Below, one piece after another: positions 15,130-29,816 of a stretch of DNA of 32,220 nucleotides. Numbering within the stretch: the stretch's first letter is position 1; each line of letters starts with the position of its first letter. The notes beneath the pieces are model-generated. The model made no database searches. It was given only the letters and a program-made list of their open reading frames with translations, and was not told the DNA's origin. The position numbers and the translations under genes are program-made. The stretch lies in contig NZ_WIXM01000036.1 in the NCBI RefSeq assembly GCF_010993965.1, forward strand, positions 1 through 32,220, written 5' to 3'. This stretch comes from Gracilibacillus sp. YIM 98692 (GTDB lineage Bacteria; Bacillota; Bacilli; Bacillales; Amphibacillaceae).

Positions 15130-15156
15130 ATTAATTTGTTTGGTGAACAAATTAAT
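15130..15156 (-). promoter_or_regulatory. Perfect inverted repeat before the glucuronidase gene, candidate operator
   Basis: ATTAATTTGTT, 5-base spacer, AACAAATTAAT: an 11-bp perfect inverted repeat. It overlaps the stop codon of the response-regulator gene and lies about 78 bases before the glucuronidase start. No U-run follows, so it does not look like a terminator. Just downstream on the minus strand are TTGGTA and, at 15 bp, TATAGT, a weak promoter. It may bind a dimeric repressor not encoded in this window. Confidence 0.45.
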
Positions 15157-16792
15157 CTAGTTCTATCTTATTTATAGGTTTATAGTCTTCCTTATATTTG
15201 TAACTTTTAGGTGAAATACCTGCGAATTTTTTAAATGTCTTTAAAAAATAGCTCTTGCTGTCAAAACCTAGCTCTAATGAAATTTGTTCGACTGATTTCG
15301 TACTATTATCTAACCACTCCATTGCTTTTTCCATTTTTATCCTTGTAACATATTCAATAAAAGTTTCCCCTGTTTCTTTTTTGAAGAGTCGACTAAAATA
15401 ACTCGGGTTCAAATGCAAGTGAGAAGATATATCTTTTAAAGTAATTTTTTGATCAAGGTGAGAATAAACATACTTTTTCGCTTTGACGATTTCTTCATTT
15501 TTGGAAATAGAATCTATTTTCTGAACTTGATCCATATATTGATGGAAAATATCCATTAGCAATGATTGTAACTCTTGATAATTTTCTGTCTCTTGCAACA
15601 GTCGGCTTGTCATCGAATTAAATGACTGATTTTCAAAATGCTGTAGTGCATTCAAACTAATTTTAATATCCAACGTTAACTTCATTGCCCAGTCTTTTAT
15701 CGCTTTCGGCGTATGTTGTTCCATTTTAATTTGTTGTAACTTGTCAGCCAGCCATTGGATCACTTTTTCGTTATCTCTATTCAAAATGGAAGTTTTTACC
15801 TGGTCCACTTCATCAGCGTAATGTTCAAAAATGGAGGCTTCTTGATAGTCCATCCATTCAAAATATTGAATCGTTCCGTGTAGATAATAGAAACGCTGTT
15901 CTTCATTCTTTATCAAATCTTGTATTGATGCTATAAGTCCGTCGCGTTGTTGACATCCGGGATGGATAACAGATGTCATGGATACCCCTAAATAACTTTT
16001 TAGTTTACCTTGGATTTCTTCCAACGCTGAATCGATGGTACGTTGAACGATTGATAATTTGTTTGAATTCGAAGGAAAGAGAATAAAGAATTTTTTGTGC
16101 AAATAAAATATTTGCACATCTCGTTGATACTTAGTAAGTACTTCTTCCATTACATTATTGATACTAAATTGAAGTAATGTTTCATTTTCATAATGAGTAA
16201 TCGCTTCATTAAACTGATCAATATAACAAAGAACGACGGAATAGCTTCCATGTGAAAAGTCCATATCTAATAGCTCTTCTTGCTCTTTCCACCATTCATC
16301 CTGTTTGACATAGGACTCATGGATGATCTTTTCAAGAAAGCTAGATTTTAAAGACATATTATTCGTTTTCATAAACTTCTTGATTTTGTCTTGGTAATCA
16401 ACTTCTTGTTTTGTTTGATCTAGCGTTTCCTTTAACCTACCCATCACCTGGATAATATCTTCTTCTTCCATCGATTCTTTCAATATATAATCAAACGTGT
16501 TTAATTTTAGCGCCTGCTGTGCAAAATGAAATTCATCATGGCAAGATAAAACGACATTATATGATGAGCTATTCTGCTCTTTTATTTTTGAAATTAATTC
16601 AATGCCATTCATATGTGGCATACCAATATCTGTAATCAATACATCATATGAATGCGAAATCAAAAATTCATAAGCATGTAAACTATCTTGAAAAGACGCA
16701 ATAACCTCGAACCCAGACTCCTCCCAAGGAATCATCTTTTCTAAAAATTTTGTAACAAGTTTATCATCATCTACTAATACTACTCGATACAT
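15152..16792 (-). CDS. YesN-like AraC-type response regulator
   Basis: 546 residues. The N-terminal receiver (about 1-120) has the acidic cluster VDDD at residues 8-10 and the phosphoacceptor Asp55 in VLITDIGMPHMNG. A long central linker (about 130-430) has no clear domain. The C-terminal AraC HTH pair (about 440-540) contains ITLKDISSHLHLNPSYFSRLFK and SLELGFDSKSYFLKTFKKFAGISPKSY. It should be phosphorylated by the YesM-like kinase just upstream and activate the sugar transporter promoter. The ATG at 16792 follows GGAGTGACTAGT; the kinase stop lies 5 bases before it, so the two are translationally coupled. The in-frame GTG at 16801 would overlap the kinase by 4 bases and has worse spacing. 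Confidence 0.9.
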   Translation of the reverse strand: MYRVVLVDDDKLVTKFLEKMIPWEESGFEVIASFQDSLHAYEFLISHSYDVLITDIGMPHMNGIELISKIKEQNSSSYNVVLSCHDEFHFAQQALKLNTFDYILKESMEEEDIIQVMGRLKETLDQTKQEVDYQDKIKKFMKTNNMSLKSSFLEKIIHESYVKQDEWWKEQEELLDMDFSHGSYSVVLCYIDQFNEAITHYENETLLQFSINNVMEEVLTKYQRDVQIFYLHKKFFILFPSNSNKLSIVQRTIDSALEEIQGKLKSYLGVSMTSVIHPGCQQRDGLIASIQDLIKNEEQRFYYLHGTIQYFEWMDYQEASIFEHYADEVDQVKTSILNRDNEKVIQWLADKLQQIKMEQHTPKAIKDWAMKLTLDIKISLNALQHFENQSFNSMTSRLLQETENYQELQSLLMDIFHQYMDQVQKIDSISKNEEIVKAKKYVYSHLDQKITLKDISSHLHLNPSYFSRLFKKETGETFIEYVTRIKMEKAMEWLDNSTKSVEQISLELGFDSKSYFLKTFKKFAGISPKSYKYKEDYKPINKIELD

Positions 16793-16797
16793 ACTAG

Positions 16798-18594
16798 TCA
16801 CTCCTTCTCAATAGGAAGATAAAAGGTATAAGTTGTTCCAATGTTTTCTTCACTATCAAGTTCCATTGAAAATTGATCACCATATATCATTTTCATTCTT
16901 TGGTAGACATTTTGTATACCAATCCCGGTGAATGATTGATGGTTTTTAGTCTGACTGCTCGACTCCGTTTGAAAGATCTTTTCTCTTATTTTCTCTAGCG
17001 TTTCTTCTGACATGCCAATTCCATCATCTGTAACTTGAAGTTTTAAAAGCTTCCTATCTAATATAGAACCATTTATGACGATTGATCCTTTTCCTTCATT
17101 ATATCCATGTATGACGGCGTTCTCAATGACCGGTTGTAAGAAAAATCGAGGAACTTCGACTTTTTTAGCATCTGATTCAATATTTATCATCAATTCTACC
17201 TCATGTTGATGACGAAAATTCATCAGTCTTGTATAATGTTCGATAATATCTAATTCTTCTTCTAAACTAATAAATGGATTATTACGATTGATCGTCATTC
17301 GCAACAAAGAAGACAATGCATGAATTAATTCAGCACTATTTTTGTCTCCTTGTAATTTGATCTGTAACCTAATAGCATTCAGAACATTAAATAAAAAATG
17401 CGGATTAATTTGAGCTTGTAACATTTCTAATTCAGCAGTCCGTTTTTCTTGTTCACGTAAACGAATCTGTTCAATCATTTCTTCCACCGTATCTAGCATG
17501 TCATTAAAAGAATAGCCCAGCTTTGCAATATCATGGTTACCAGATAATTTAGCTCTCCTAGTTAAATCACCTTGCTCTACTGATTTTGTGACAGTATTTA
17601 ATTCGGACAATGGTTTCGTTGCTTCGCGAACCAATACGATTAAACCAATTAAAAATAATAATAGTAGTGCCCCTTGAATAATAATCGTTGTTCTTGTCAT
17701 TGTATTAATATTTCCGATTGTATCTTGATAAGGCACAACACTTACTAGACGCCAATCAGAATATGAAACAGGATGACTGACTAAAAAATAGTCTTCATCA
17801 TTTCGTTTCACAATTTGATAATCATTTGTGTTGACATCATACGGTAATGTTTGGGTGATCATTGCTTCATCCACACTTGAGTAAACTTCTCCATCCTGAT
17901 CGGTTAAAAAATATTCAGAATTAGTATCTTGTTGGTAATTCTCTAAAAGGGATCTTATTAGTTTTTCACGAATACTTATAATTAAATACGCATCATATTT
18001 GGTTGTTTGTTTTAAATTATTACCGAAACTAATCAAATATGGATCCTTGTCTTGGTCTGATGGAATATAAGTAGGATGAGCTCCAATCCATAATGTCTGA
18101 TAAAAATCAGACACTTTTAACTCCTCAAACCAAGGCTCTTCATAGAATTTTAATGGATCAAATTCACTATAAGGATAGTTCATATAAAAAAGATCATTGC
18201 TAAATAAAATAGTAAAGTAAGTTGGTGGTAATAAATCAGTTATACTTGATAAATGATTAGACATTTCTATAAAGTTCAAAGCAATCTCTTGATTAGCTTG
18301 TGGTGATTCCGAATTAATCGCTTGATGTTGTTTCATGATTTGATTAAATCTTGTATCAAATTGGATATAATTGGACGCATACATTACGTCATCTAAAATA
18401 TTTTGTAGGTTTACTTCAATCAAACGTAGTGACTCATTTGCTTGCTTAACTGCACGTTCCTCCAACACATCTTTCGTTAAATAATTTGAGACAAAATAGG
18501 TAATAATCCAAGGCAATAAAATACAAAGGATGACCGCAATAATTAAACGACTGCGCAAAGATAATTGCTTTAACTTTTTGAATAATTTCTTCAT
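16798..18594 (-). CDS. YesM-like sensor histidine kinase
   Basis: 598 residues. One membrane segment near the N-terminus (LRSRLIIAVILCILLPWIIT) and one near residue 310 (IIIQGALLLLFLIGLIVLV) enclose an extracellular sensor domain of about 250 residues, probably dCache. HAMP follows (about 330-375). The kinase core is of the LytS/YesM type: AQINPHFLFNVLNAIR with phospho-acceptor His399, then ATP-binding DDGIGMS and GIGIQNVYQRM. The likely signal is an extracellular glucuronide or the loaded binding protein. ATG 18594 has GGTGG 9 bases upstream; an in-frame start 17 codons earlier is less likely. It follows the binding-protein gene after a strong hairpin. Confidence 0.9.
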   Translation of the reverse strand: MKKLFKKLKQLSLRSRLIIAVILCILLPWIITYFVSNYLTKDVLEERAVKQANESLRLIEVNLQNILDDVMYASNYIQFDTRFNQIMKQHQAINSESPQANQEIALNFIEMSNHLSSITDLLPPTYFTILFSNDLFYMNYPYSEFDPLKFYEEPWFEELKVSDFYQTLWIGAHPTYIPSDQDKDPYLISFGNNLKQTTKYDAYLIISIREKLIRSLLENYQQDTNSEYFLTDQDGEVYSSVDEAMITQTLPYDVNTNDYQIVKRNDEDYFLVSHPVSYSDWRLVSVVPYQDTIGNINTMTRTTIIIQGALLLLFLIGLIVLVREATKPLSELNTVTKSVEQGDLTRRAKLSGNHDIAKLGYSFNDMLDTVEEMIEQIRLREQEKRTAELEMLQAQINPHFLFNVLNAIRLQIKLQGDKNSAELIHALSSLLRMTINRNNPFISLEEELDIIEHYTRLMNFRHQHEVELMINIESDAKKVEVPRFFLQPVIENAVIHGYNEGKGSIVINGSILDRKLLKLQVTDDGIGMSEETLEKIREKIFQTESSSQTKNHQSFTGIGIQNVYQRMKMIYGDQFSMELDSEENIGTTYTFYLPIEKE

Positions 18595-18658
18595 TTTATG
18601 TTCACCACCGAATATAAGAAAAGCGCAAGAACGTTTCTTTATCACTTATATAACTAAC

Positions 18659-20120: not shown

Positions 20121-20954
20121 TTAACCTTTCACACCACCAAGTTGAATCCCTTCAATAACTTGCTTCTGACCTATTACGAAAATAATCAATAGTGGAATGA
20201 TTGCCGATACAGATGCAGCCATCATTAATGAATAAATACTGCCATGTTCATCAGCGAAGCTCGAGACCCCGAGTTGGATCGTATACAACGCCTCACTTCT
20301 TAAGAAAATTAAAGGGTATTGAAAGTCGTTCCAAGTCCAAATAAAGCGTAAGATCGCATATGTTGCAATCGCTGGTCTGACTAATGGCAATGCTATTGAT
20401 GCAAATATGCGGAAGTGACCAGCGCCATCCATTCTCGCAGATTCGATAATTTCATTACTAACACCTAGATAAAATTGTCGAAGCATAAAAGTTCCAAATA
20501 CACTAAAACTATTTAATAGAATTAATCCAGTATGTGTATCGTATAAGCCCAACCAACGATAAAGTAAGAACTGTGTTACTAATAATGTTTGTGGCGGTAT
20601 CATATATGTTGCCAATACGATTATAAATACTAAGTCTCTTCCTTTAAAGTTAATTTTGGCAAAACCATATGCTGCAAGACTTGAAACAAATACCGATGTC
20701 AATGTTGTTAATACCGTTACTTTAATCGAGTTCCAATATAACATTAAGAATGGCAATGATCCGGTCCATACTTCATGATAATTTTCGATAGCATTCCATG
20801 TATTTGGTATCCATTGAATCGGGAATGTCAGCACTTCTTCTTCTACTTTTAATGAAGCTGATACCATCCAAAAGAACGGCGCCATAAACAATATCCCAAT
20901 AAGGGCCATAATAATGGTCATTGTTAATCTTCTAAAATCAAAACTTTGTGTCAT
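20121..20954 (-). CDS. Sugar ABC transporter permease, MalG type
   Basis: 277 residues and six membrane segments. The EAA loop ESARMDGAGHFRIFASIALPLVRP (near residue 170) is the site that contacts the ATPase. The C-terminus IEGIQLGGVKG is the usual ending of MalG/YesQ-like permeases. It pairs with the permease encoded 19 bases upstream. GGAGGAG precedes ATG 20954. No ATPase gene is present, as in other B. subtilis-type sugar importers that share MsmX. Confidence 0.92.
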   Translation of the reverse strand: MTQSFDFRRLTMTIIMALIGILFMAPFFWMVSASLKVEEEVLTFPIQWIPNTWNAIENYHEVWTGSLPFLMLYWNSIKVTVLTTLTSVFVSSLAAYGFAKINFKGRDLVFIIVLATYMIPPQTLLVTQFLLYRWLGLYDTHTGLILLNSFSVFGTFMLRQFYLGVSNEIIESARMDGAGHFRIFASIALPLVRPAIATYAILRFIWTWNDFQYPLIFLRSEALYTIQLGVSSFADEHGSIYSLMMAASVSAIIPLLIIFVIGQKQVIEGIQLGGVKG

Positions 20955-20973
20955 TTTGTCTCCTCCTCCCTTA

Positions 20974-21942
20974 TCAATAGTTCACCCATTTTTTCTGTCC
21001 AATAAATTGAAGGTACGTAATCACTAAAATAATCACAAACATTACTAATGCTATCGCTGAAGAATAGCCTGTTTTTAATTCTATAAATGCTTGTTGGTAT
21101 AAATAAACCACTGGAATATTTGTCGAATTCGCTGGACCACCTTCTGTTAAGACGATAATCAAATCGAAAATTTTAAAACTAGCTATGAGTCCGGTTACAA
21201 ATAATAGGAAAGTTGTCGGTGAAACAAGTGGTATCGTTATTTTCGTAAATTGATACCAAGCAGAAGCACCATCAATTTGAGCTGCTTCATATAGTTCTTT
21301 TGGAATATTTTGCAAACCAGCTAAATAAATGATTAAGTTAAAACCGATACTTGTCCAGATCAGAATGATCATAACAGATGGTAATGCATACGTTGTATCT
21401 GCTATCCATCCTGGTGGATTATCAATTCCTATTGACATGAGGAATTGGTTAACCGGTCCTTCAGATGGGTGAAATAATACTCGGAACACAACAGCCACCG
21501 CAACCACACTAGAGATAAATGGCATGAAGAAAATTACTTTAAATAGATCTTTAAAAAATATATATTTGTTAATAATGACAGCAATTCCCAAAGAAAGGAT
21601 TAAGGTAATCGGGATTGCTATTAAAACGATAAAGTTGTTTCCTAAAGATTTTAAGAATACATCATCATTAAATAAGGCAATAAAATTATCAAACCCTATA
21701 AATGATGCATTCGCATAACCCGATACAAAGTTCCAATCGGTAAAACTTAGTGCTAACGATGCAACTATTGGAAAGATCACTAAAATAGATGTACCGATGA
21801 ACATTGGTGCAATAAAAAGCCATCCTGCTAAACTTTCTCGCCAACCACCAAAAGGATCACTGGTCTTTTTCTTTTTTTTCCTTTTCGATTTGGCGGAGCG
21901 TTCTTCTTTTATTTTTGTATCCGCTCTCACTTCACTACTCAT
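20974..21942 (-). CDS. Sugar ABC transporter permease, MalF type
   Basis: 322 residues. A very basic cytoplasmic start (SAKSKRKKKKKTSD) is followed by six membrane segments and the EAA loop EAAQIDGASAWYQFTKITIPLV near residue 220. The protein ends in GQKKWVNY. First gene of the leftward cluster, directly behind the promoter at 21976-22004. ATG 21942 is chosen because GAGAGG is 8 bases upstream; the in-frame GTG at 21951 is too close to that site. Confidence 0.92.
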   Translation of the reverse strand: MSSEVRADTKIKEERSAKSKRKKKKKTSDPFGGWRESLAGWLFIAPMFIGTSILVIFPIVASLALSFTDWNFVSGYANASFIGFDNFIALFNDDVFLKSLGNNFIVLIAIPITLILSLGIAVIINKYIFFKDLFKVIFFMPFISSVVAVAVVFRVLFHPSEGPVNQFLMSIGIDNPPGWIADTTYALPSVMIILIWTSIGFNLIIYLAGLQNIPKELYEAAQIDGASAWYQFTKITIPLVSPTTFLLFVTGLIASFKIFDLIIVLTEGGPANSTNIPVVYLYQQAFIELKTGYSSAIALVMFVIILVITYLQFIGQKKWVNY

Positions 21943-21975
21943 GTAATTCACCTCTCTGTACTAAATTGTAAATTC

Positions 21976-22004
21976 ATTATAAGTTAAGAAATCGTTTACA
22001 ACAA
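21976..22004 (-). promoter_or_regulatory. Sigma-A promoter of the transporter/regulator/glucuronidase cluster
   Basis: On the minus strand -35 TTGTTG (21999-22004), a 17-bp spacer and a perfect -10 TATAAT (21976-21981), about 34 bases before the permease start. The non-consensus -35 fits a promoter that needs an activator. The same -35 and spacing survive in the decayed copy at 27692-27720. Confidence 0.75.
21987..22000. promoter_or_regulatory. cre site (CcpA operator)
   Basis: AGAAATCGTTTACA matches the cre consensus TGWAANCGNTNWCA at all positions but the first. It lies between -35 and -10, where bound CcpA would block RNA polymerase. Glucose repression of the glucuronide locus is therefore likely. 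Confidence 0.7.
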
Positions 22005-22009
22005 TCGAC

Positions 22010-22038
22010 TATATTTACGCGAATGAAAAAATTTTTAC
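22010..22038 (-). promoter_or_regulatory. Direct repeats upstream of the -35: candidate YesN-type operator
   Basis: On the plus strand TATATTTAC (22010-22018) and AATTTTTAC (22030-22038) repeat with 20 bp between equivalent bases. The nearer one ends 5 bp from the -35 box, a class II activator position for an AraC-type protein. The same pair with the same 20-bp step occurs at the decayed promoter near 27726-27754. Assignment to the response regulator of this cluster is an inference. Confidence 0.55.
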
Positions 22039-22163
22039 TAATCCTGTTCGGTTGAATATATATGGCTCAAACCCTTTAGTAACAGTCCCTTTTCTAGCTT
22101 ATTCGCTTAAAATAGTGTTATATGGTTTTGTTTAATCGATCCGCATCTGCTTTTGAAAGGAAC

Positions 22164-22196
22164 AATTTTTACTTTTTTCGATAAAATTTTTACTTT
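22164..22196. promoter_or_regulatory. Distal direct repeats upstream of yesL
   Basis: AATTTTTACTTT at 22164 and AATTTTTACTTT again at 22185, a step of 21 bp (two helical turns). They match the promoter-proximal repeats and have the same orientation. They may be a second operator for the AraC-type regulator, acting on yesL or through looping with the proximal pair. Confidence 0.5.
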
Positions 22197-22259
22197 CTAC
22201 TTATTAACAGCGCACATCTTCTATAAACATGATATATTTTTAAAAAAGGAGGAATTTCT

Positions 22260-22889
22260 ATGCAACTAGGAGCTTTTTCCGGTGCCATCTACACGTTTTG
22301 TACATGGTTTTATCGATTAGCTTTTATCAATGTTCTGTGGATTTTATTCACGATTCTAGGACTTGGGATCTTCGGTTTTTTCCCGGCAACTATTGCGATG
22401 TTAGCTACATTGCGACAATATATCAATCAGCAAGAGGTAGCTGTATTCCCGACTTTTTGGCAGTATTATAAACGAGAATTTATCCAAAGTAATAAGCTTG
22501 GTGTGGTCATTATGGCGATTGGGTTGATTCTCTTTATCAATATACAATTTATCCGTACAACCGATATTGCTATTTCAGAATTTATCTACATCTCTGCGAT
22601 TATTATTAGTTGTTTTTACTTTTTAGTTATTTGTTATCTACTTGCCTCATATGTAGAATTTGATTTAAATGTAAGAACGCATATCAAAAATTCGATTTTA
22701 ATCGCCATGTATAATCCTTTAGCTAGTTTATTTATTATTTTCGGATTTGCCGCTGTCTATTATGCTGTTACTTTTATCTCTGGTCTCGGTATCTTTTTCA
22801 GTGTTAGTATTTTAGGAATGGTCATCTTATCCTCCGCTAAACTTGCCTATCGCAAAATAGAGAAAAAACAATCCGCCCTGCAAACCTGA
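22260..22889 (+). CDS. yesL: YesL-family (DUF624) membrane protein
   Basis: 209 residues with about five membrane segments. The start GAFSGAIYTFCTWFYRLAFINVLWILFTILGLGIFGFFPAT and the end TFISGLGIFFSVSILGMVILSS are the typical ends of YesL/DUF624 proteins. The biochemical role is unknown. The family is regularly coded beside YesM/YesN two-component systems and sugar ABC transporters, as in the B. subtilis yes cluster, so a role in sensing or transport is plausible. ATG 22260 follows AAAGGAGGAATTTCT. It is divergent from the transporter cluster, with 317 bases between them. A broken second copy of its 3' end is at 27784-27902. Confidence 0.88.
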   Translation: MQLGAFSGAIYTFCTWFYRLAFINVLWILFTILGLGIFGFFPATIAMLATLRQYINQQEVAVFPTFWQYYKREFIQSNKLGVVIMAIGLILFINIQFIRTTDIAISEFIYISAIIISCFYFLVICYLLASYVEFDLNVRTHIKNSILIAMYNPLASLFIIFGFAAVYYAVTFISGLGIFFSVSILGMVILSSAKLAYRKIEKKQSALQT

Positions 22890-23097: not shown

Positions 23098-23118
23098 AAA
23101 AAGAATAGAATGCTATTC
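23098..23118 (-). terminator. Terminator of the oxidoreductase operon
   Basis: Short stem GAATAG (23103-23108) / CTATTC (23113-23118) with an AATG loop, followed on the minus strand by TTTTT. It overlaps the stop codon of the last gene. Confidence 0.55.
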
Positions 23119-24189
23119 CGTTACTTTCATTGCTTTTTCTTGGGCAATTAAGCATAATTCCGCAGCTTTAAATGCATGTTCTTGTGTCATCGCGTTTTCT
23201 GTGCGATGAATGCAGTCTTTGATTAATTCACCAAAGAATGGGAAACCAACTTTTCCTTGTAAATCATAGTGTTTCTCTCCTTCTTTGTTGACAAGATACA
23301 GTTGATCGCTACCTTTGTCCGTTGCTATGTCTACGTATTTACGAATCTCAATTGTTCCTTCTGTACCTACAATAAACGTTCTTCCATCTCCCCAAGTACT
23401 TAAACCATCCGGTGTGAACCAATCAACACGGAAAAATTGCGTCGCACCATTATCTCCTTTTAATGTTGTATCCCCATAGTCTTCTAGTTCTGGATATTCT
23501 GGATTATCATAATTTCCTACTTTACTATGAAGGATCTCTGCATCATCACATCCAGCATAAAATAAAAATTGCTCAATTTGATGACTTCCAATATCACAAA
23601 GTATGCCACCATACTTTTCTTTTTCAAAAAACCACTCTGGACGAGCTGGTGCATTTAAGCGATGCGGTCCAAATCCAGTCACTTGTATGACTTTACCAAT
23701 TGCACCTTGTTCAATTAAATCCCCAGCAAACACTGCACTTTCTACATGAAGGCGTTCACTAAAGTACACCATATATTTTTGCCCTGTTTCTTGAATGACT
23801 TTTTTTGTTTCTTCCAGTTGTCCCTTTGTTGTAAAAGGTGTCTTATCCGTGAAATAGTCTTTGCCTGCACGCATAACACGATTACCTAAAGCACTGCGCT
23901 CAGATGGTACTGCCGCTGCTGCAACTAGTTTTACTTCCTCATCTTCTAACACTTGCTCTAATGACTCAGCTTGCTTTGCTTGCGGGAATTGTTCTAAAAA
24001 TTGATCCACTTTCTCTTGGTCAGGGTCATATACCCACTTTAATGTAGCACCAGCTTCTACAAGACCATTACATTGCCCATAAATATGACCATGATCAAGT
24101 GCTGCTGCAGCGATGACAAATTCACCTTCTTTTACAACCGGATTTGGCTTGCCTTTCGGTGCATAATTCATACCATCTGCTTTACCCAA
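23113..24189 (-). CDS. Gfo/Idh/MocA-family NAD(P)-dependent oxidoreductase (third of the operon)
   Basis: 358 residues. The Rossmann start is unusual: FVIAAAALDHGHIYGQC (about 24-40) replaces the standard GxGxxG loop by DHGHIYG, a variant I associate with a subset of this superfamily. The usual EKP motif is DKTPFTT (Asp115-Lys116). The catalytic segment is YGGILCDIGSHQIEQFLF with His203. It should oxidise or reduce a hydroxyl of a sugar, sugar acid or glycoside in the cytoplasm; the exact substrate is unknown. It starts at TTG 24189, 10 bases behind GGAG; the next in-frame ATG is 18 bases further down and has no ribosome site. Last gene of the operon, 51 bases after the isomerase. Confidence 0.85.
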   Translation of the reverse strand: MGKADGMNYAPKGKPNPVVKEGEFVIAAAALDHGHIYGQCNGLVEAGATLKWVYDPDQEKVDQFLEQFPQAKQAESLEQVLEDEEVKLVAAAAVPSERSALGNRVMRAGKDYFTDKTPFTTKGQLEETKKVIQETGQKYMVYFSERLHVESAVFAGDLIEQGAIGKVIQVTGFGPHRLNAPARPEWFFEKEKYGGILCDIGSHQIEQFLFYAGCDDAEILHSKVGNYDNPEYPELEDYGDTTLKGDNGATQFFRVDWFTPDGLSTWGDGRTFIVGTEGTIEIRKYVDIATDKGSDQLYLVNKEGEKHYDLQGKVGFPFFGELIKDCIHRTENAMTQEHAFKAAELCLIAQEKAMKVTE

Positions 24190-24240
24190 TTTCTTTACAC
24201 TCCTTTATTACTTTTATGCCTGTTTCCATACACTGTCTGA

Positions 24241-25101
24241 TTAAAACCAGTCCGCATAACCCATTTTTCTTAAATTTTCTGCAGAATCATGCAAGCAATC
24301 AAATGGATCACGGCCATATGTATCATCTTGTTCGATTAGAAAATACTTTGCTCCCGCTTCTAAACTAGCATCGATGATAGCAGGAATGTTGAGGTTTCCT
24401 TCGCCAACTTCAGCAAATTCAATCAAATTCACAAATTTATTAAAAAAAGCTGGCATGTCCTTTAAGTCATCATCTGTTACATTCAATTCGCCGATACGAT
24501 AATCTTTAAGATGAATCAAATCTACTCGATCTTTGTATTGCGTAATGAAATCTACTGGATTTACTCCTGCCCGCTGAATCCAGTGAACATCTAATTCAAA
24601 GCCTAGTTTACTCGTATTTTGTTTCATTAAATCTAGTAGGAAAGTGCCATCATAACGCTGAAACTCAATATGATGGGTATGATAGTACAGTTTTATTCCT
24701 TCTTCAGCAAGTTTAACTGCTGTTTCCTCGGCCCGATGAATGAAATCCATGATCTTATCTTTATCTCCCATGATTGAAAAGGGTAACATACCTATTCGAA
24801 TAAAGTCACAATCTAAAGCTTTACAATCAGCGACAATTTTGTCATAGTGATCCGTCAAGTTTTCTTGTTTAAGCCCTGGCATCCTAGGCTCAAGTGGTGC
24901 AGTTATAGCCGTAATATCTATACCAAAATCATCACTTGCACGTTTTAATTCACTCACATTTTCACTCGTCATTGGAATTTGTGATACTTCCACAGAGCTA
25001 AAACCTAAATCATGTAATTTTTTCATTGTTTCATAGGCACCTATTTCTTCCACTTTTCCTTTTAGCATCATCATTTGAACACCAATTTTACCTTGTGTCA
25101 T
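24241..25101 (-). CDS. Sugar phosphate isomerase/epimerase-like TIM-barrel protein
   Basis: 286 residues, AP-endonuclease-2/xylose-isomerase-like fold. Likely metal ligands follow the family pattern: Glu146 in YYHTHHIEF, Asp171 in FELDVHW, His197 in LIHLKDY and Glu231 in FAEVGEGN; another Glu is in YFLIEQD. Members isomerise or epimerise sugars, or dehydrate keto-inositols. In recently described systems relatives cleave 3-keto-glycosides made by Gfo/Idh/MocA enzymes. Lying between such oxidoreductase genes it probably acts on their keto products. Its ATG overlaps the stop of the preceding gene by 4 bases (ATGA), so the two are translationally coupled. Confidence 0.87.
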   Translation of the reverse strand: MTQGKIGVQMMMLKGKVEEIGAYETMKKLHDLGFSSVEVSQIPMTSENVSELKRASDDFGIDITAITAPLEPRMPGLKQENLTDHYDKIVADCKALDCDFIRIGMLPFSIMGDKDKIMDFIHRAEETAVKLAEEGIKLYYHTHHIEFQRYDGTFLLDLMKQNTSKLGFELDVHWIQRAGVNPVDFITQYKDRVDLIHLKDYRIGELNVTDDDLKDMPAFFNKFVNLIEFAEVGEGNLNIPAIIDASLEAGAKYFLIEQDDTYGRDPFDCLHDSAENLRKMGYADWF

Positions 25102-26111
25102 TGTAAAACCCCCATTTTCATTTTTTTCTTTACTTCTGATGACTTGTAAATCAAATCGATCATTTCCATTGATACATGCGCATCTTTCACACGAATATAA
25201 TTGGATCCATCTTGTTTTATCTGTTGATAAAATTGATCAATTAATTTAGCATGACTAGCACCGTAATAAAATTTAGAGCCAGGTAGCTTTTGATCTTCGA
25301 TGATAACTTGCTTTTTTCCATCTTGATCTGTAAGAGTTAAGATACTATCCTTCACGGTTAATCTTGCGTTTTCTAATAACACTTGAAATTCAACCGAATC
25401 ATTTTCAGCATTTGATAAGGTCGCAAAAAATAATCCTGTCGCACCACTTTGGAAGTGAATATGTGCAGTAGCAGTATCTTCTATATCTAACCCGTAATCT
25501 AATAAGCGATCTACCGACCCACGAATAGACTTGATTTCACCTCCGAACAGCTGTAACAAGTCCAATGTATGAATCGATTGGTTAATCATCACACCGCCAC
25601 CAGCTGTATTCATTGCACCACGCCATGGTTTGCTCTCATAGTAGGACTTAGGACGACGCCATGTCACAAGTCCTTTTAAACCAAGCACCTTTCCGTATGT
25701 TCCACTAGCAATAATGGATGCAATTTCTTCCATCGTCTCATTTAAACGATTTTGCAAACTTACGCCAATCTTCACATTTGGGTAGTCTTTTTCCAGTTTT
25801 ACTAGAGCACGGCTGTCGTCCATATTATGAGCAAGTGGTTTTTCCAAAATAACATGTATATCGTTTTCTGCCGCTGCTTTTGTTACCGGATAATGTAGGT
25901 GATGTGGCAAACAAATATGCACACAGTCTAAATCTGCTTCCGTCAACATTTCATGATAATTAGTGTAAAATGGTATGTCTTTTACCATGTTCTGTTTGGA
26001 TTCATCAATATCACACAATGCAACAAGCTGAGTATTTTCTTGTCGCTTAATAGTAGACAGGTGAATTGTTGAAATATCTCCAAGTCCGATAACTCCTATT
26101 CGCAACACCAT
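25098..26111 (-). CDS. Gfo/Idh/MocA-family oxidoreductase (second of the operon)
   Basis: 337 residues. N-terminal Rossmann motif GVIGLGDIS (6-14), ILEKPLAHN with the conserved Glu90-Lys91-Pro92, and the catalytic segment GGGVMINQSIHTLDLLQLFGG with His182 and Asp185. The standard pattern supports NAD(P)-dependent oxidation of a sugar-type hydroxyl; the substrate is not readable from sequence. ATG 26111 lies behind a strong AGGAGG, 16 bases after the preceding gene, and its end overlaps the isomerase start. Confidence 0.9.
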   Translation of the reverse strand: MVLRIGVIGLGDISTIHLSTIKRQENTQLVALCDIDESKQNMVKDIPFYTNYHEMLTEADLDCVHICLPHHLHYPVTKAAAENDIHVILEKPLAHNMDDSRALVKLEKDYPNVKIGVSLQNRLNETMEEIASIIASGTYGKVLGLKGLVTWRRPKSYYESKPWRGAMNTAGGGVMINQSIHTLDLLQLFGGEIKSIRGSVDRLLDYGLDIEDTATAHIHFQSGATGLFFATLSNAENDSVEFQVLLENARLTVKDSILTLTDQDGKKQVIIEDQKLPGSKFYYGASHAKLIDQFYQQIKQDGSNYIRVKDAHVSMEMIDLIYKSSEVKKKMKMGVLQ

Positions 26112-26127
26112 TTCACACCTCCTTTTT

Positions 26128-27285
26128 TTAAACCTTTAATCCTTGTCTCTCTTGCTCTCTTCTTTTATTTAATTCTTCTAAATATTTATCTTCGTCGATT
26201 GGCAATGCAACCTCTTCTTTTAACCAACTGGATAGGTGCATCGCATTTGCAAGCTCTACACCTTTAATCCCGTCACTACCAGGTGCAACTAGTGGAGTGC
26301 CATCTAGAATATTTGCTGCAAAATTCTCTAATACTGCTACGTGTTGACCTCCCCAAACACTTTCAAACTCTAACACTTCTTCTTCAAAGATAGAGCCAGG
26401 ACCCTCACCTTGGAACAATTTCATCACGTCTTGCATGTCCATGTTGTCGCTCATTTCTTTTTCAGGTGTGTTCAAGCGTTTGATTGATACTTTCTTGCTA
26501 TCATCGACAACGATTTTTCCTTTATCACCATGGATCTCTAAGCGGTCTGTACCCATGACATCGTGTGTACATGTGATGAACACACCTGTTGCACCATTAC
26601 CATAATCGAATACAGTTGTTACATCATCTTCTACTGGGATATTACGCTGATAACCATATTGTGCCTTTGTGTACACTTTTTCCGGCATTCCACACATCCA
26701 TTGTAATAGGTCGATTTGGTGTGGTGCTTGATTAACTAATACACCACCACCTTCACCATCCCATGTAGCTCGCCAAGATCCTGCATCATAATAACCTTGC
26801 GGGCGCCACCAAGTAGTAATGATCCAATTCGTTCTTCTAATTGCTCCAATCTCATCGTTGTCGATAATTTCCTTCACTTTTTGATATAGTTCATTTGTAC
26901 GTTGATTAAACATAATCGCATAAGTTAGTTCGGGTTTTGTTGCTGCAAATTCATTGATTTCTTTCACTTGTTTCGTATATACACCTGCAGGCTTTTCAAG
27001 TAATGCGTGCACATCACGTTTTAAAGATTCCATTCCCATTTCAGGGTGTAGATAGTGTGGGACACAAGTAACGATCGCATTAACATCTCCACTTTCCAAC
27101 ATGTCGATATAGTCATCATAAAAAGGCACACCTGGAAATTCTGTTTCGGCTCTTTCTTTCTTTTCTGGATCATTATCGCAAATTGCTCCAATTTCCATGT
27201 TCGATATACGACCTTCTTTAATAAAGTTCGCATACGCTCCACCTTGTTGACCTAGTCCAATGATACCTAATTTTACTTTTGTCAT
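26128..27285 (-). CDS. Gfo/Idh/MocA-family oxidoreductase (first of the operon)
   Basis: 385 residues, longer than the second gene because of a C-terminal extension (LPIDEDKYLEELNKRREQE). Motifs: GIIGLGQQG (7-15) for NAD(P), LLEKPAG (Glu97-Lys98-Pro99) and GGGVLVNQAPHQIDLLQW with His189 and Asp192. It resembles the second enzyme in the block WRPQGYYDAGSWRA / WRRPKSYYESKPWRG, which suggests related substrates. GGAG precedes the ATG. It is preceded by about 400 bases of decayed DNA that still holds a promoter-like sequence at 27692-27720. Confidence 0.9.
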   Translation of the reverse strand: MTKVKLGIIGLGQQGGAYANFIKEGRISNMEIGAICDNDPEKKERAETEFPGVPFYDDYIDMLESGDVNAIVTCVPHYLHPEMGMESLKRDVHALLEKPAGVYTKQVKEINEFAATKPELTYAIMFNQRTNELYQKVKEIIDNDEIGAIRRTNWIITTWWRPQGYYDAGSWRATWDGEGGGVLVNQAPHQIDLLQWMCGMPEKVYTKAQYGYQRNIPVEDDVTTVFDYGNGATGVFITCTHDVMGTDRLEIHGDKGKIVVDDSKKVSIKRLNTPEKEMSDNMDMQDVMKLFQGEGPGSIFEEEVLEFESVWGGQHVAVLENFAANILDGTPLVAPGSDGIKGVELANAMHLSSWLKEEVALPIDEDKYLEELNKRREQERQGLKV

Positions 27286-27322
27286 TACTCATCACTCCTT
27301 ATATATATATCAAGGCGTTTCT

Positions 27323-27373
27323 GTCGGTATTGTCTTCAGTTTGAAAAACCGACCAAATTATGAAACGTTTTCA
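27323..27373. promoter_or_regulatory. Inverted repeats upstream of the oxidoreductase operon
   Basis: GTCGGT (27323-27328) and ACCGAC (27348-27353) form an inverted repeat with a 19-base gap. Just beyond, TGAAACGTTTTCA (27361-27373) is a near-palindrome of the LacI/CcpA operator type, one base short of a regular cre. Either may be an operator for the operon. No repressor gene is nearby. Confidence 0.35.
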
Positions 27374-27439
27374 AAATCGCATTCATCTGCTATCTGATGA
27401 AGTTATAAAATACCTCAAGCCCCCAATACTTCTAGAGGA

Positions 27440-27504
27440 GTGGCCTTTTACTTTACCAACTTGTCCTTGCAATTGATAATTCACCATTAACTGTTCACCC
27501 ATTT
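27440..27504 (-). pseudogene. Relics of two ABC permease gene ends
   Basis: At 27487-27504 the minus strand reads KWVNS and stop. It shares 14 identical bases (plus strand GTTCACCCATTTTT) with the KKWVNY end of the MalF-type permease at 20974. Directly downstream on the minus strand, 27440-27475 reads QGQVGKVKG, like the IQLGGVKG end of the MalG-type permease at 20121, but its stop codon is lost. Order and strand match the intact pair. Each match is short; order, strand and the flanking promoter and yesL relics make the case. Confidence 0.55.
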
Positions 27505-27691
27505 TTATCACCTTTTTTGATTTACAGAGTAAATTTTATTGTATATGCTAAGATAATAAAATGCCTATCATTGTAAGATTTTCGTTATTTTTTGACTCAT
27601 AGTGCATTGGATTTGCTTTTCTAGTTATTGTGGTATCAAAAAGAACTAAATCAGGGTAATCACTTCACCTCTTTTTCTAAATTGTGATTTT

Positions 27692-27754
27692 ATTGTAGAA
27701 TTTGTATCCATTTACAACAATGAACTATCTTTACTTAAACCATAATATTTTTAC
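27692..27754 (-). promoter_or_regulatory. Surviving promoter region of the deleted transporter copy
   Basis: Minus strand: -35 TTGTTG (27715-27720), 17-bp spacer, -10 TACAAT (27692-27697), a cre-like TGTAAATGGATACA (27703-27716) between them, and direct repeats TATCTTTAC and ATATTTTTAC with a 20-bp step upstream of the -35. All parts align with 21976-22038; the block TTTACAACAAT..ACTAT.TTTAC is identical at 21 of 24 bases. It points at the oxidoreductase operon, about 400 bases away, with no clear terminator between. Confidence 0.6.
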
Positions 27755-27783
27755 CAAAATAATAAATAGATTTTTTTCTATTA

Positions 27784-27902
27784 ATGTTACCTTTATCTCA
27801 GGGCTTGGTATTTTCTTCAGCGTTAGCTTACTAGGTTTGGTGGTATTATCATCTGCTAATACATCTTATCGAAAGGTAAAACTTAAAAGGTGTATCGCTT
27901 GA
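27784..27902 (+). pseudogene. 3' fragment of a second yesL gene
   Basis: The frame reads VTFISGLGIFFSVSLLGL, then VVLSSANTSYRKVK. This matches residues about 169-199 of the intact YesL at 22260-22889 (VTFISGLGIFFSVSILGM, then VILSSAKLAYRKIE). All upstream membrane segments are missing and the preceding residues are unrelated. An ATG at 27702 opens the frame but has no ribosome site. Clearly a deletion remnant. Confidence 0.82.
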
Positions 27903-27920
27903 TTGGCGATACACTTTTTT
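27890..27920 (+). terminator. Terminator of the yesL fragment
   Basis: GTGTATCGC (27890-27898) / GCGATACAC (27906-27914), 7-base loop, then six T. It outlived the gene it served. Confidence 0.8.
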
Positions 27921-27989
27921 GCTTGTTAGAAAATTATATGATATGACATGCGATGAATTGGAAGAAGTAATTGATGAAGACGTCATACT

Positions 27990-28028
27990 AAAAGAAGGAG
28001 TAAGCTCAAATGGCTTACTCCTTCTTTT
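27990..28028. terminator. Long perfect hairpin, bidirectional terminator-like
   Basis: AAAAGAAGGAGTAAGC (27990-28005) / GCTTACTCCTTCTTTT (28013-28028), a perfect 16-bp stem with a 7-base loop and T-rich ends on both strands. No intact gene ends here. The preceding bases 27934-27990 read like a coding remnant (MTCDELEEVIDEDVILKEG). Confidence 0.65.
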
Positions 28029-28178
28029 ATAGTTTTTAGTTTTAAAAGCTACATATGAATAAAGAAAAAAATTTTGATTTGTCATCTATTCTTGTTACAA
28101 ATGAACTTTGAACACTGGCCTACTCAACACTTCTGTTTTATCATACACGTGATCAACAATTTTCTCTGTGATTCTTCC

Positions 28179-29816
28179 CTAATAATATCTTATTATCTTA
28201 TGATTATTAGAAAATACCTCTAAAGTAGGATCAAAATAACGATGTTTAATATTACCTTTTAAATATTCACCATTTTCATATTTATTACTAGAATCCCATG
28301 TTGTATCTAGAATGATCCACCTTCCATCAACAAACGCCTCATTCCAAGCATGATTGGAATCATTATGGTTTACTTCATCCCATCCTTTACCATCTGTACT
28401 AACGCCTAAAGCAAAACCGTTCACTAACTTAGCAGGAATGTCTAATGATTGTAATAGAGCTTCTGTCAATTCCGCATACCCTTGACATACGGCACGCTTT
28501 TTATCTAATGTTGCGATTGCATCCTGTTTTCCATAATCACCTGAATAAAAGGCATCATAATCATAATAAATATTATCAGACACCCAATCATGTATCGCTA
28601 GTACTTTTTCATAATCACTCGTAAGTCCTTCCGTAATTTCATTTGCTAAGTCAGAGATCCTCTCTTCCTCTTCTTCTGACCCTAAATTTAATTCTACATA
28701 ACTATTTTTTACCTCTTGTGATGAATCGAACATTGTGACATTGTTGTCGTAAACAGGAGATTGAGGAAAAAATAATTTATTTTCCTTTTGGTAAAGAGGA
28801 ATACCCCAATGAAAGCCGGGATAAGAACCATATCTTTCTGTACTTACATAAGTATCAATTTCGTATTCTCCTTCAGGCAAATCCATATGTATACTCCCAC
28901 TAAATTCACCACTACTTATTTGGACTAAACTACTTTCCATTGTTTTTCCGCTTTGATGATTCACCTGAAACCATAACCATTTATTATTGCTAATTGTTTC
29001 TCCATAAAATTTGATCGTATTAGAATCAATTAGTTCAATATTAAAATAATCATTTGAATAGTTTGAACTTTTGTAAGTATTAGAACCTTGATTGGTATCC
29101 GAAGTTCCTTTATATTTATCTACTACTTGATCGACATTTATGCTTTGTTCTTTGGCATCTAGGAAACGAGCCAGAATAGCTGCTGTGTGAGCTCTTGTAA
29201 CATCATCTTCTACCAAGTAATAGCCATTGTCACCATTAATGATTTCAGCACTTTTTACGAGTGCGATATAAGGTAAATCTTCTTTTTCCATTTTATCTTT
29301 ATCTTTAAATGGGACATCAATGGTGTCTAGTTGTTTCAAACCTTCGAGTGCATCATTCCAGCTAGAACTATCTTTCGCCAAGGCTTTCGCAATCATTTTC
29401 CCTACATCTAAACGACTCATTTTTTGTTTCGGATGAAATCCGTCTGGATACTCATTTAAATCAATGATACCTAAATCTACTAGTCTATTAATGTGAGGTT
29501 TTGACCAATGTCCATCTGCAATGTCAGAATGTTTAGTTTCTGCTTCAGCATCAATTAAACCAGACAACATTTTACTTACGTGTGCATTGGTCACCTTCCC
29601 ACCAGGCTTAAAGGTTCCGTCTTGATATCCACTGACTACCCCTTTATCTACCATTAAATCAATCACACTTTTCGCCCAGTGGTCTTTAATATCACTAAAC
29701 GAGCCATTCTCATTCACTTTTGCTTCTACAACGTTAGGTGAATGAAGCAAACCACCTAATGGCTGCGTTAAACTTACGGTTAATAATGTTGCTCCAATTA
29801 TTATTAGTTTTTTCAT
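28179..29816 (-). CDS. Secreted SLH-domain protein with transglutaminase-like domain
   Basis: 545 residues. Signal peptide (MKKLIIIGATLLTVSLTQPLGG), then three S-layer-homology domains (about 38-220; motifs FSDIKDHWAKSVIDLMVDKGVVSGYQDGTF and DVTRAHTAAILARFL) that anchor proteins to pyruvylated wall polymer. A beta-rich middle part (about 250-370) is unassigned. The C-terminal transglutaminase-like domain has the full triad: Cys444 (AVCQGYAEL), His489 (NHAWNE) and Asp504 (ILDTTWD). Such domains act as proteases, peptide cross-linkers or amidases; the exact reaction is unknown, but the site is the cell surface. ATG 29816 lies behind AAGGGGTG. Confidence 0.88.
   Translation of the reverse strand: MKKLIIIGATLLTVSLTQPLGGLLHSPNVVEAKVNENGSFSDIKDHWAKSVIDLMVDKGVVSGYQDGTFKPGGKVTNAHVSKMLSGLIDAEAETKHSDIADGHWSKPHINRLVDLGIIDLNEYPDGFHPKQKMSRLDVGKMIAKALAKDSSSWNDALEGLKQLDTIDVPFKDKDKMEKEDLPYIALVKSAEIINGDNGYYLVEDDVTRAHTAAILARFLDAKEQSINVDQVVDKYKGTSDTNQGSNTYKSSNYSNDYFNIELIDSNTIKFYGETISNNKWLWFQVNHQSGKTMESSLVQISSGEFSGSIHMDLPEGEYEIDTYVSTERYGSYPGFHWGIPLYQKENKLFFPQSPVYDNNVTMFDSSQEVKNSYVELNLGSEEEEERISDLANEITEGLTSDYEKVLAIHDWVSDNIYYDYDAFYSGDYGKQDAIATLDKKRAVCQGYAELTEALLQSLDIPAKLVNGFALGVSTDGKGWDEVNHNDSNHAWNEAFVDGRWIILDTTWDSSNKYENGEYLKGNIKHRYFDPTLEVFSNNHKIIRYY

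Follow-up and report, generated by a model that had tools for sequence, protein, structure and literature searches.

What is the stretch of DNA that lies upstream of an oxidoreductase operon in the genome of Gracilibacillus sp. YIM 98692, and which genes did it once hold? The window analysed here, 32,220 nucleotides in length, is the whole of one contig (C30) of a 4.37-Mb genome in 69 contigs. It encodes an intact transporter unit, here called unit A, the GfoA-GfoB-AP2-GfoC operon, and, to the right of the stretch in question, genes for SLH-domain proteins. A first-pass annotation had read positions 27440–27902 as four relics, in the order and orientation of the intact locus, of a transporter and YesL that once belonged to the operon and were lost by several internal deletions. 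The several deletions are borne out by our analysis. The start of the scar moves to about 27286, because the 3′ end of an AraC-family gene matches 27286–27420. We consider it highly probable that 27286–27902 is a composite deletion scar in this Gracilibacillus genome, formed by several deletions, and, as part of the same joint reading, that its components, from left to right, are a dead AraC-family regulator gene, the upstream region of the Gfo operon, and the remnants of a second A-type divergent unit (Table 1). The comparisons described below show directly what each piece is, how the pieces are ordered, and that AraC and a B-type transporter exist intact in relatives.

Table 1 Features of the scar and of the related units in the window
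Feature	Position	Strand	Evidence
Sensor histidine kinase and AraC-type response regulator of unit A	15152..18645	-	Pfam; homologues behind SBP in 8 further A units
Intact A unit: MalG and MalF (-) divergent from YesL (+), promoter 21947-22041	20121..22889	.	Pfam; same order in 8 further A units
GfoA-GfoB-AP2-GfoC operon: three Gfo/Idh/MocA oxidoreductases and a xylose-isomerase-like TIM barrel, downstream of the scar	23113..27285	-	Pfam; orthologues
AraC-family gene 3′ end (end of the C-terminal helix-turn-helix), with a small internal deletion and an in-frame stop	27286..27404	-	tblastn, DNA shuffles, alignment
Deletion junction inside the AraC gene (~33 bp); ~650 bp of relatives missing	27405..27437	-	Positions of the flanking pieces
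AraC-family gene 5′ coding end, start codon 27502; holds or overlaps both supposed permease ends	27438..27502	-	tblastn, DNA
Upstream (promoter) region of the AraC-GfoA-GfoB-AP2-GfoC operon, conserved with relatives	27503..27606	-	Local alignment
Relic promoter (possibly still active) of an A-type MalF-MalG-SBP operon: ribosome-binding site, -10, -35-like hexamer, three TTTAC boxes; MalF coding sequence gone	27665..27754	-	Identity, shuffles, box pattern
yesL (DUF624-family) 3′ end, A type, ~35 codons, own stop codon lost	27786..27890	+	68-71% to the window's YesL over 35-37 aa
Terminator-like hairpin after the yesL relic	27885..27919	+	Hairpin scan; not homologous to intact A-type tails

The left part of the scar is what remains of an AraC-family regulator gene. 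With the intact 286-aa AraC protein of a relative (G012) as the query, tblastn recovered residues 1–40 (48%), 243–263 (71%), and 262–286 (58%) in order. At the DNA level, 27430–27620 aligned to the AraC 5′ ends of relatives with z-scores of 26.8 (G012), 29.3 (G011), 28.4 (G001), and 15.0 (G003), and 27286–27420 aligned to the AraC 3′ ends with z-scores of 26.0, 26.8, 23.8, and 11.9 for the same four genomes; the scores were reached by 0 of 1000 shuffles in each case. Identities over the 5′ region, including the region upstream of the gene, amount to 122/171 nucleotides in G012, 131/182 in G011, and 119/170 in G001, and the local alignment of the upstream region to these three stops at 27606–27607. 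In reference stretches of ~1 kb from the same genomes, the pieces that flank the deletion junction map to approximately 144–150 and 798–809. The C-terminal helix-turn-helix end is present as two pieces (the intact reference protein has HTH_18 and HTH_AraC), while the N-terminal ligand-binding (cupin-like) domain, residues 19–121 of the reference, is mostly lost, with residues 1–40 of 286 left, as expected of a pseudogene.

Both short permease ends of the first-pass annotation fall within this gene or across its start. The peptide QGQVGKVKG (27443–27469), taken for the end of a MalG-type permease, has no stop codon after VKG and is the N-terminus of the AraC-family regulator, while KWVNS with its stop (27487–27504), taken for the end of a MalF-type permease, is a one-frame-off reading across the AraC start codon. 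A weak likeness of 27430–27520 to the permease ends of the window's own unit A exists (MalG-A, z 2.8, reached by 17/1000 shuffles; MalF-A, z 3.1, 14/1000) and is outdone by the AraC explanation; the corresponding values for the B-type permeases of G012 are z −0.2 (612/1000) for MalG and 1.5 (108/1000) for MalF. No MalF or MalG coding sequence of either the A or the B type was found at 27286–28178 (tblastn, E ≤ 1e-3). Short peptide matches can thus mislead, given that the two supposed permease ends turned out to be a regulator.

To place the pseudogene among its relatives, GfoA was searched in 61 genomes, this one included, of which 21 gave a match at E ≤ 1e-60. From these, 17 homologous loci were compared as 20-kb regions (two of them shorter), namely 16 places in other genomes at ≥60% identity and a second copy in the same genome, on contig C1. 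The pseudogene stands directly before GfoA, the site at which a near full-length AraC was found by tblastn in 12/17 loci, and the open frame was confirmed in L064, L065, L067, L070, and L072, which are all five of those 12 loci with listed frames. In the remaining five (L066, L068, L069, L071, and L080), tblastn found no AraC before GfoA. By eye, a short stretch like the last AraC codons persists before GfoA in L066 and L071, and because of these remnants loss of AraC seems to be recurrent in the genus.

The right part of the scar resembles unit A. In this unit, the SBP, MalG, and MalF genes are encoded on the minus strand and yesL on the plus strand, with the kinase and response regulator genes behind SBP; this pair is likely the regulator of the unit A promoter. 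The ATG at 21942 is the probable start of MalF, in place of the GTG of the listed reading frame (21951), because the ribosome-binding site stands between it and the promoter. YesL relatives (E ≤ 1e-40) occur in 12/159 genomes of the family, and yesL is divergent from MalF-MalG-SBP-kinase-regulator in 9/9 A units (those of this genome, G012, G011, G010, G015, G148, G070, G066, and G068), a reading that left out matches in G069, G175, and G176 and two further matches in G068. The relic has the same layout, with yesL divergent from the lost malF side and the conserved promoter between them. Of the four relics first proposed in intact-locus order, the promoter and the yesL end therefore stand, with the promoter directed toward the minus strand and yesL on the plus strand as in unit A, and the two permease ends do not.

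Comparison of 27690–27760 with 21970–22040, which the first-pass annotation had named as a test that could refute its reading of the scar, gave a score of 24, whereas dinucleotide shuffles averaged 9.6 (sd 1.79; z 8.0; 0/1000 reached the score), and the promoter copy is upheld. The wider stretch 27600–27790 aligned to the MalF–YesL intergenic regions of the window's own unit A, G012, G011, and G010 with z-scores of 12.1, 12.9, 13.5, and 13.0 (0/1000 shuffles each). The relic promoter shares 71–77% identity with five of eight A-unit promoters and 64–70% with the other three, and its best match is in another genus (G066, 77%); as a block it is 72–74% identical to the promoters of this genome, G012, and G011, which are 77–80% identical among themselves. 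A −10 hexamer (TACAAT, 27692–27697), a 17-bp spacer, and a −35-like hexamer (TTGTTG, 27715–27720) correspond to TATAAT, 17 bp, and TTGTTG in unit A, and TTTAC boxes at 27711, 27730, and 27750 keep a spacing identical to that of unit A. The exact box pattern occurs in this genome only here and at 21995 (reversed control, 0), a count that indicates retention and is no independent proof because these same two sites supplied the pattern; in some relatives, the first and second boxes differ. Beside the −35 region (window positions 27709–27710), a site that we take to be cre-like reads CG in 8/8 intact A promoters and CA in the relic. Relative to unit A, the relic has lost ~700 bp that separate the promoter from the yesL end, as well as the permease genes from the MalF start on. 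In seven comparisons of the promoter relic with B-side regions, the number of shuffles scoring as high was low in two (16 and 43 of 500) and not in the other five (94 to 496 of 500), and we take the promoter relic and the B-side regions not to be homologous.

The yesL 3′ end proposed earlier was recovered as a protein match at 27780–27890 (E 2.1e-8, 68% identity, own genome). It was among 25 matches in the protein search of this genome, in which the best other long match is 34% identical and a 68-residue piece on contig C1 is 54% identical. The DNA of the relic aligned to the yesL genes of unit A, G012, G011, and G010 with z-scores of 17.0, 18.5, 16.4, and 13.7 (0/1000 shuffles each), and its peptide matched six YesL-A proteins at E 1e-12 to 1e-16 (blastp, single-subject comparisons). 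An origin from a B-type yesL was rejected: six YesL-B proteins matched at E 0.002–0.3 at differing positions in the same kind of blastp comparison, and at the DNA level the scores of four yesL-B genes were reached by 44, 423, 390, and 210 of 500 shuffles. A terminator-like hairpin is present after the relic, but 27880–28040 shows no homology to the intact A-type yesL tails (against those of unit A, G011, and G012, its scores are equalled by 493, 495, and 295 of 500 single-base shuffles).

Over 96 nt, the yesL relic is 70, 72, and 72% identical to the yesL-A genes of this genome, G012, and G011, which are 70–76% identical among themselves. Of its 29 differences from the window's own yesL, 20 fall on third codon positions and one on a second position, and 8/23 changed codons alter the residue. 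Because of this third-position bias, together with a divergence equal to that among intact yesL-A genes, the relic was probably under selection as a gene until recently and would be no young copy of the window's own unit. Trees were built from nine A-type sequences, with 200 bootstraps, for the promoter block plus the 96 nt of yesL and for yesL alone; G068 was left out of the tree and identity comparisons of A-type sequences, as the segment rule found no match in it. Bootstrap values of 20–76 at the nodes above the relic in the two trees do not settle its placement, and because the trees lack support they do not tell apart a duplication in this lineage, an older duplication, and a transfer from another species.

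Whether the left-over promoter has taken over the operon is a further matter. In such a promoter capture, an A-type promoter without its MalF would read into the GfoA operon, and control of the operon would pass from the dead AraC to the YesM/YesN-type two-component system of unit A. We regard this as possible, though on the improbable side. The relic promoter is oriented toward GfoA and keeps its hexamers, spacer, and box spacing, no terminator-like site was found on the minus strand between 27690 and 27285, and the retained block stops close to the limit of the alignable regulatory region. Against capture, the rarity of the box pattern adds no independent weight, and a generic promoter scan of 27200–28200 returned 5 candidates versus 5.0 in shuffles and left the relic unflagged. 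The −35 hexamer fits the textbook sequence at 3/6 bases, although the same is true of the intact unit. Relative to functional copies, the promoter piece is no better kept than the yesL tail, as would be expected if the loss were merely recent; the operon's own upstream region has been kept as well, and the cre-like CG has changed. The fuller proposal, that the scar amounts to a regulatory rewiring in which a captured promoter, with three boxes that may bind a response regulator and with an altered cre-like site, drives an operon whose AraC is dead, is tentative and in our judgement unlikely. If it were true, a single two-component system would control the operon together with transporter A, and both would partly escape catabolite repression. 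PMC11034029 reports candidate binding motifs for response regulators of the pneumococcus, including YesN.

The idea that the relics are the operon's own ancestral transporter and yesL, decayed in place to leave MalG, MalF, promoter, and yesL ends, fares worse; we hold it to be very unlikely, and for the pieces that it names it is refuted. It had been expected that relatives would carry an intact transporter and yesL just upstream of the operon, and this is the case at 6/17 loci (L064, L065, L066, L067, L069, and L080; in L067 the SBP gene is split by a frame break). However, the transporter found there is of the B type, with YesL, SBP, MalF, and MalG all directed toward GfoA. Its YesL is 28–34% identical and co-directional, the relic yesL is of the A type and unlike YesL-B, and both permease ends are AraC pieces, so the relic does not derive from this transporter. 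In another species (G008, L068 11053–11487), only MalG-B and MalF-B fragments lie upstream of the Gfo operon, forming a separate scar of a lost transporter. The B-type transporter was not found by tblastn in the other nine of the 17 loci, and the sequence of L070 ends too near to the operon. At 27286–28178, searches with the B-type proteins found no traces (tblastn, E ≤ 1e-3). Because six of the 17 loci carry the B-type transporter and G008 carries fragments of it, the operon has very probably lost one here, as judged from these comparisons of sequence. Chance similarity of AT-rich DNA would suffice for the two permease ends as such, at the z-scores given above for the own and B-type permeases, but as an account of the scar it is negligible, with the promoter, yesL, and AraC pieces exceeding 1000/1000 shuffles in every comparison made.

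For the preferred reading, a scar that retains pieces of a second A-type unit, a history can be proposed. There would likely have been a pair of neighbouring A-type units, or a pair of A|Gfo|AraC modules arranged end to end; the second would then have been deleted except for the pieces seen here, and the B-type transporter that some relatives carry at this place would have been lost along with it. We infer both the end-to-end arrangement and the order of these losses. In support of this history, A|Gfo|AraC is also present in the window's order in another genus (G070, L129), where the A unit lies directly beside GfoC and is followed by the operon and AraC. In G011 and G012, the A unit is followed by a set of genes that, from the look of their proteins, we presume to be of the LarB/FGGY/LarE/SDR/LarA/AEC type, then by GfoC-AP2-GfoB-GfoA, AraC, and the B-type transporter. 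Against it, no intermediate was found: a DNA search with 27600–28178 in 17 genomes of the genus, this one included, detected A-type sequence only at the A units of this genome, G011, G012, and G010 and at the relic, with the other matches short and elsewhere.

The operon occurs at ≥80% GfoA identity in 13/17 genomes of the genus, this one included; the comparison of the site therefore rests on 12 other genomes, in one of which (G003) a contig end is close by. The SLH-transglutaminase gene on the right (28179–29816) was found in only 1/17 genus genomes, this one (E ≤ 1e-60), and for this reason the right flank is not comparable. Past the stop codon of this gene (window 28095–28178, minus strand), the same frame stays open for another 27 codons (GRITEKIVDHVYDKTEVLSRPVFKVHL) before it meets a stop, and this stretch resembles a truncated protein tail. 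For 27607–27662, which separates the AraC upstream region from the promoter relic, no source was found: the best score over all fetched loci and both strands was 19.5, and five shuffles over 20 loci gave 14.5–17.5, a control that is not like-for-like. Two short matches were taken as chance: 27684–27710 resembles a 27-bp site on contig C13 (93%, E 0.0016) inside a gene that looks to us like one for argininosuccinate lyase, and 27866–27893 resembles a 28-bp site in G006 (93%, E 3.4e-4). Within the window, no RNA family reached its gathering threshold and ARAGORN detected no tRNA or tmRNA genes, and no papers about the locus were among the literature matches listed.

The genome also encodes a second Gfo operon, on contig C1, together with Lar-type genes and a B-type transporter; AraC and AP2 were not found in the 20 kb covered. 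A further contig (C41; L138 336–2057) carries an intact AraC and, after it, a gene with an AP2-like beginning; these are the two genes not found in the C1 set. Because the genome keeps the Gfo, B-type, and Lar-type genes on C1 and an AraC on C41, this second gene set may let the window's set tolerate the loss of AraC, the B-type transporter, and the Lar-type genes.

Compared with known systems, the scar is ordinary in kind, adding one more set of pseudogene pieces to a carbohydrate gene cluster in which turnover is high; the mild interest lies in the left-over promoter, now aimed at the oxidoreductase operon. It offers a clean, testable case of a promoter from a deleted operon left pointing at genes whose neighbouring regulator is broken. 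Its left part belongs with the AraC-family regulators (Pfam AraC_binding, HTH_AraC/HTH_18), as both relic ends align to the intact 286-aa protein whose gene immediately precedes GfoA in G012 and other relatives. Unlike those regulators, the relic is without ~650 bp of its middle, is frame-broken in the rest, and cannot encode the protein. Its last part belongs with the YesL/DUF624 membrane proteins linked to carbohydrate ABC permeases, as seen in the match of the last ~35 codons to the window's own YesL. It lacks, however, the start and the DUF624 core of that family, covering YesL residues ~168–204, whereas the Pfam model matches residues 20–95. Scars left by deletions, and the remnants of pseudogenes, generally show the same collinear fragments, frame breaks, and intact copies elsewhere when they occur in bacterial gene clusters, and the B-type transporter scar at the same operon in G008 is of this kind. 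In contrast to such scars in general, what is left here includes a complete-looking promoter of another operon, aimed at the downstream genes.
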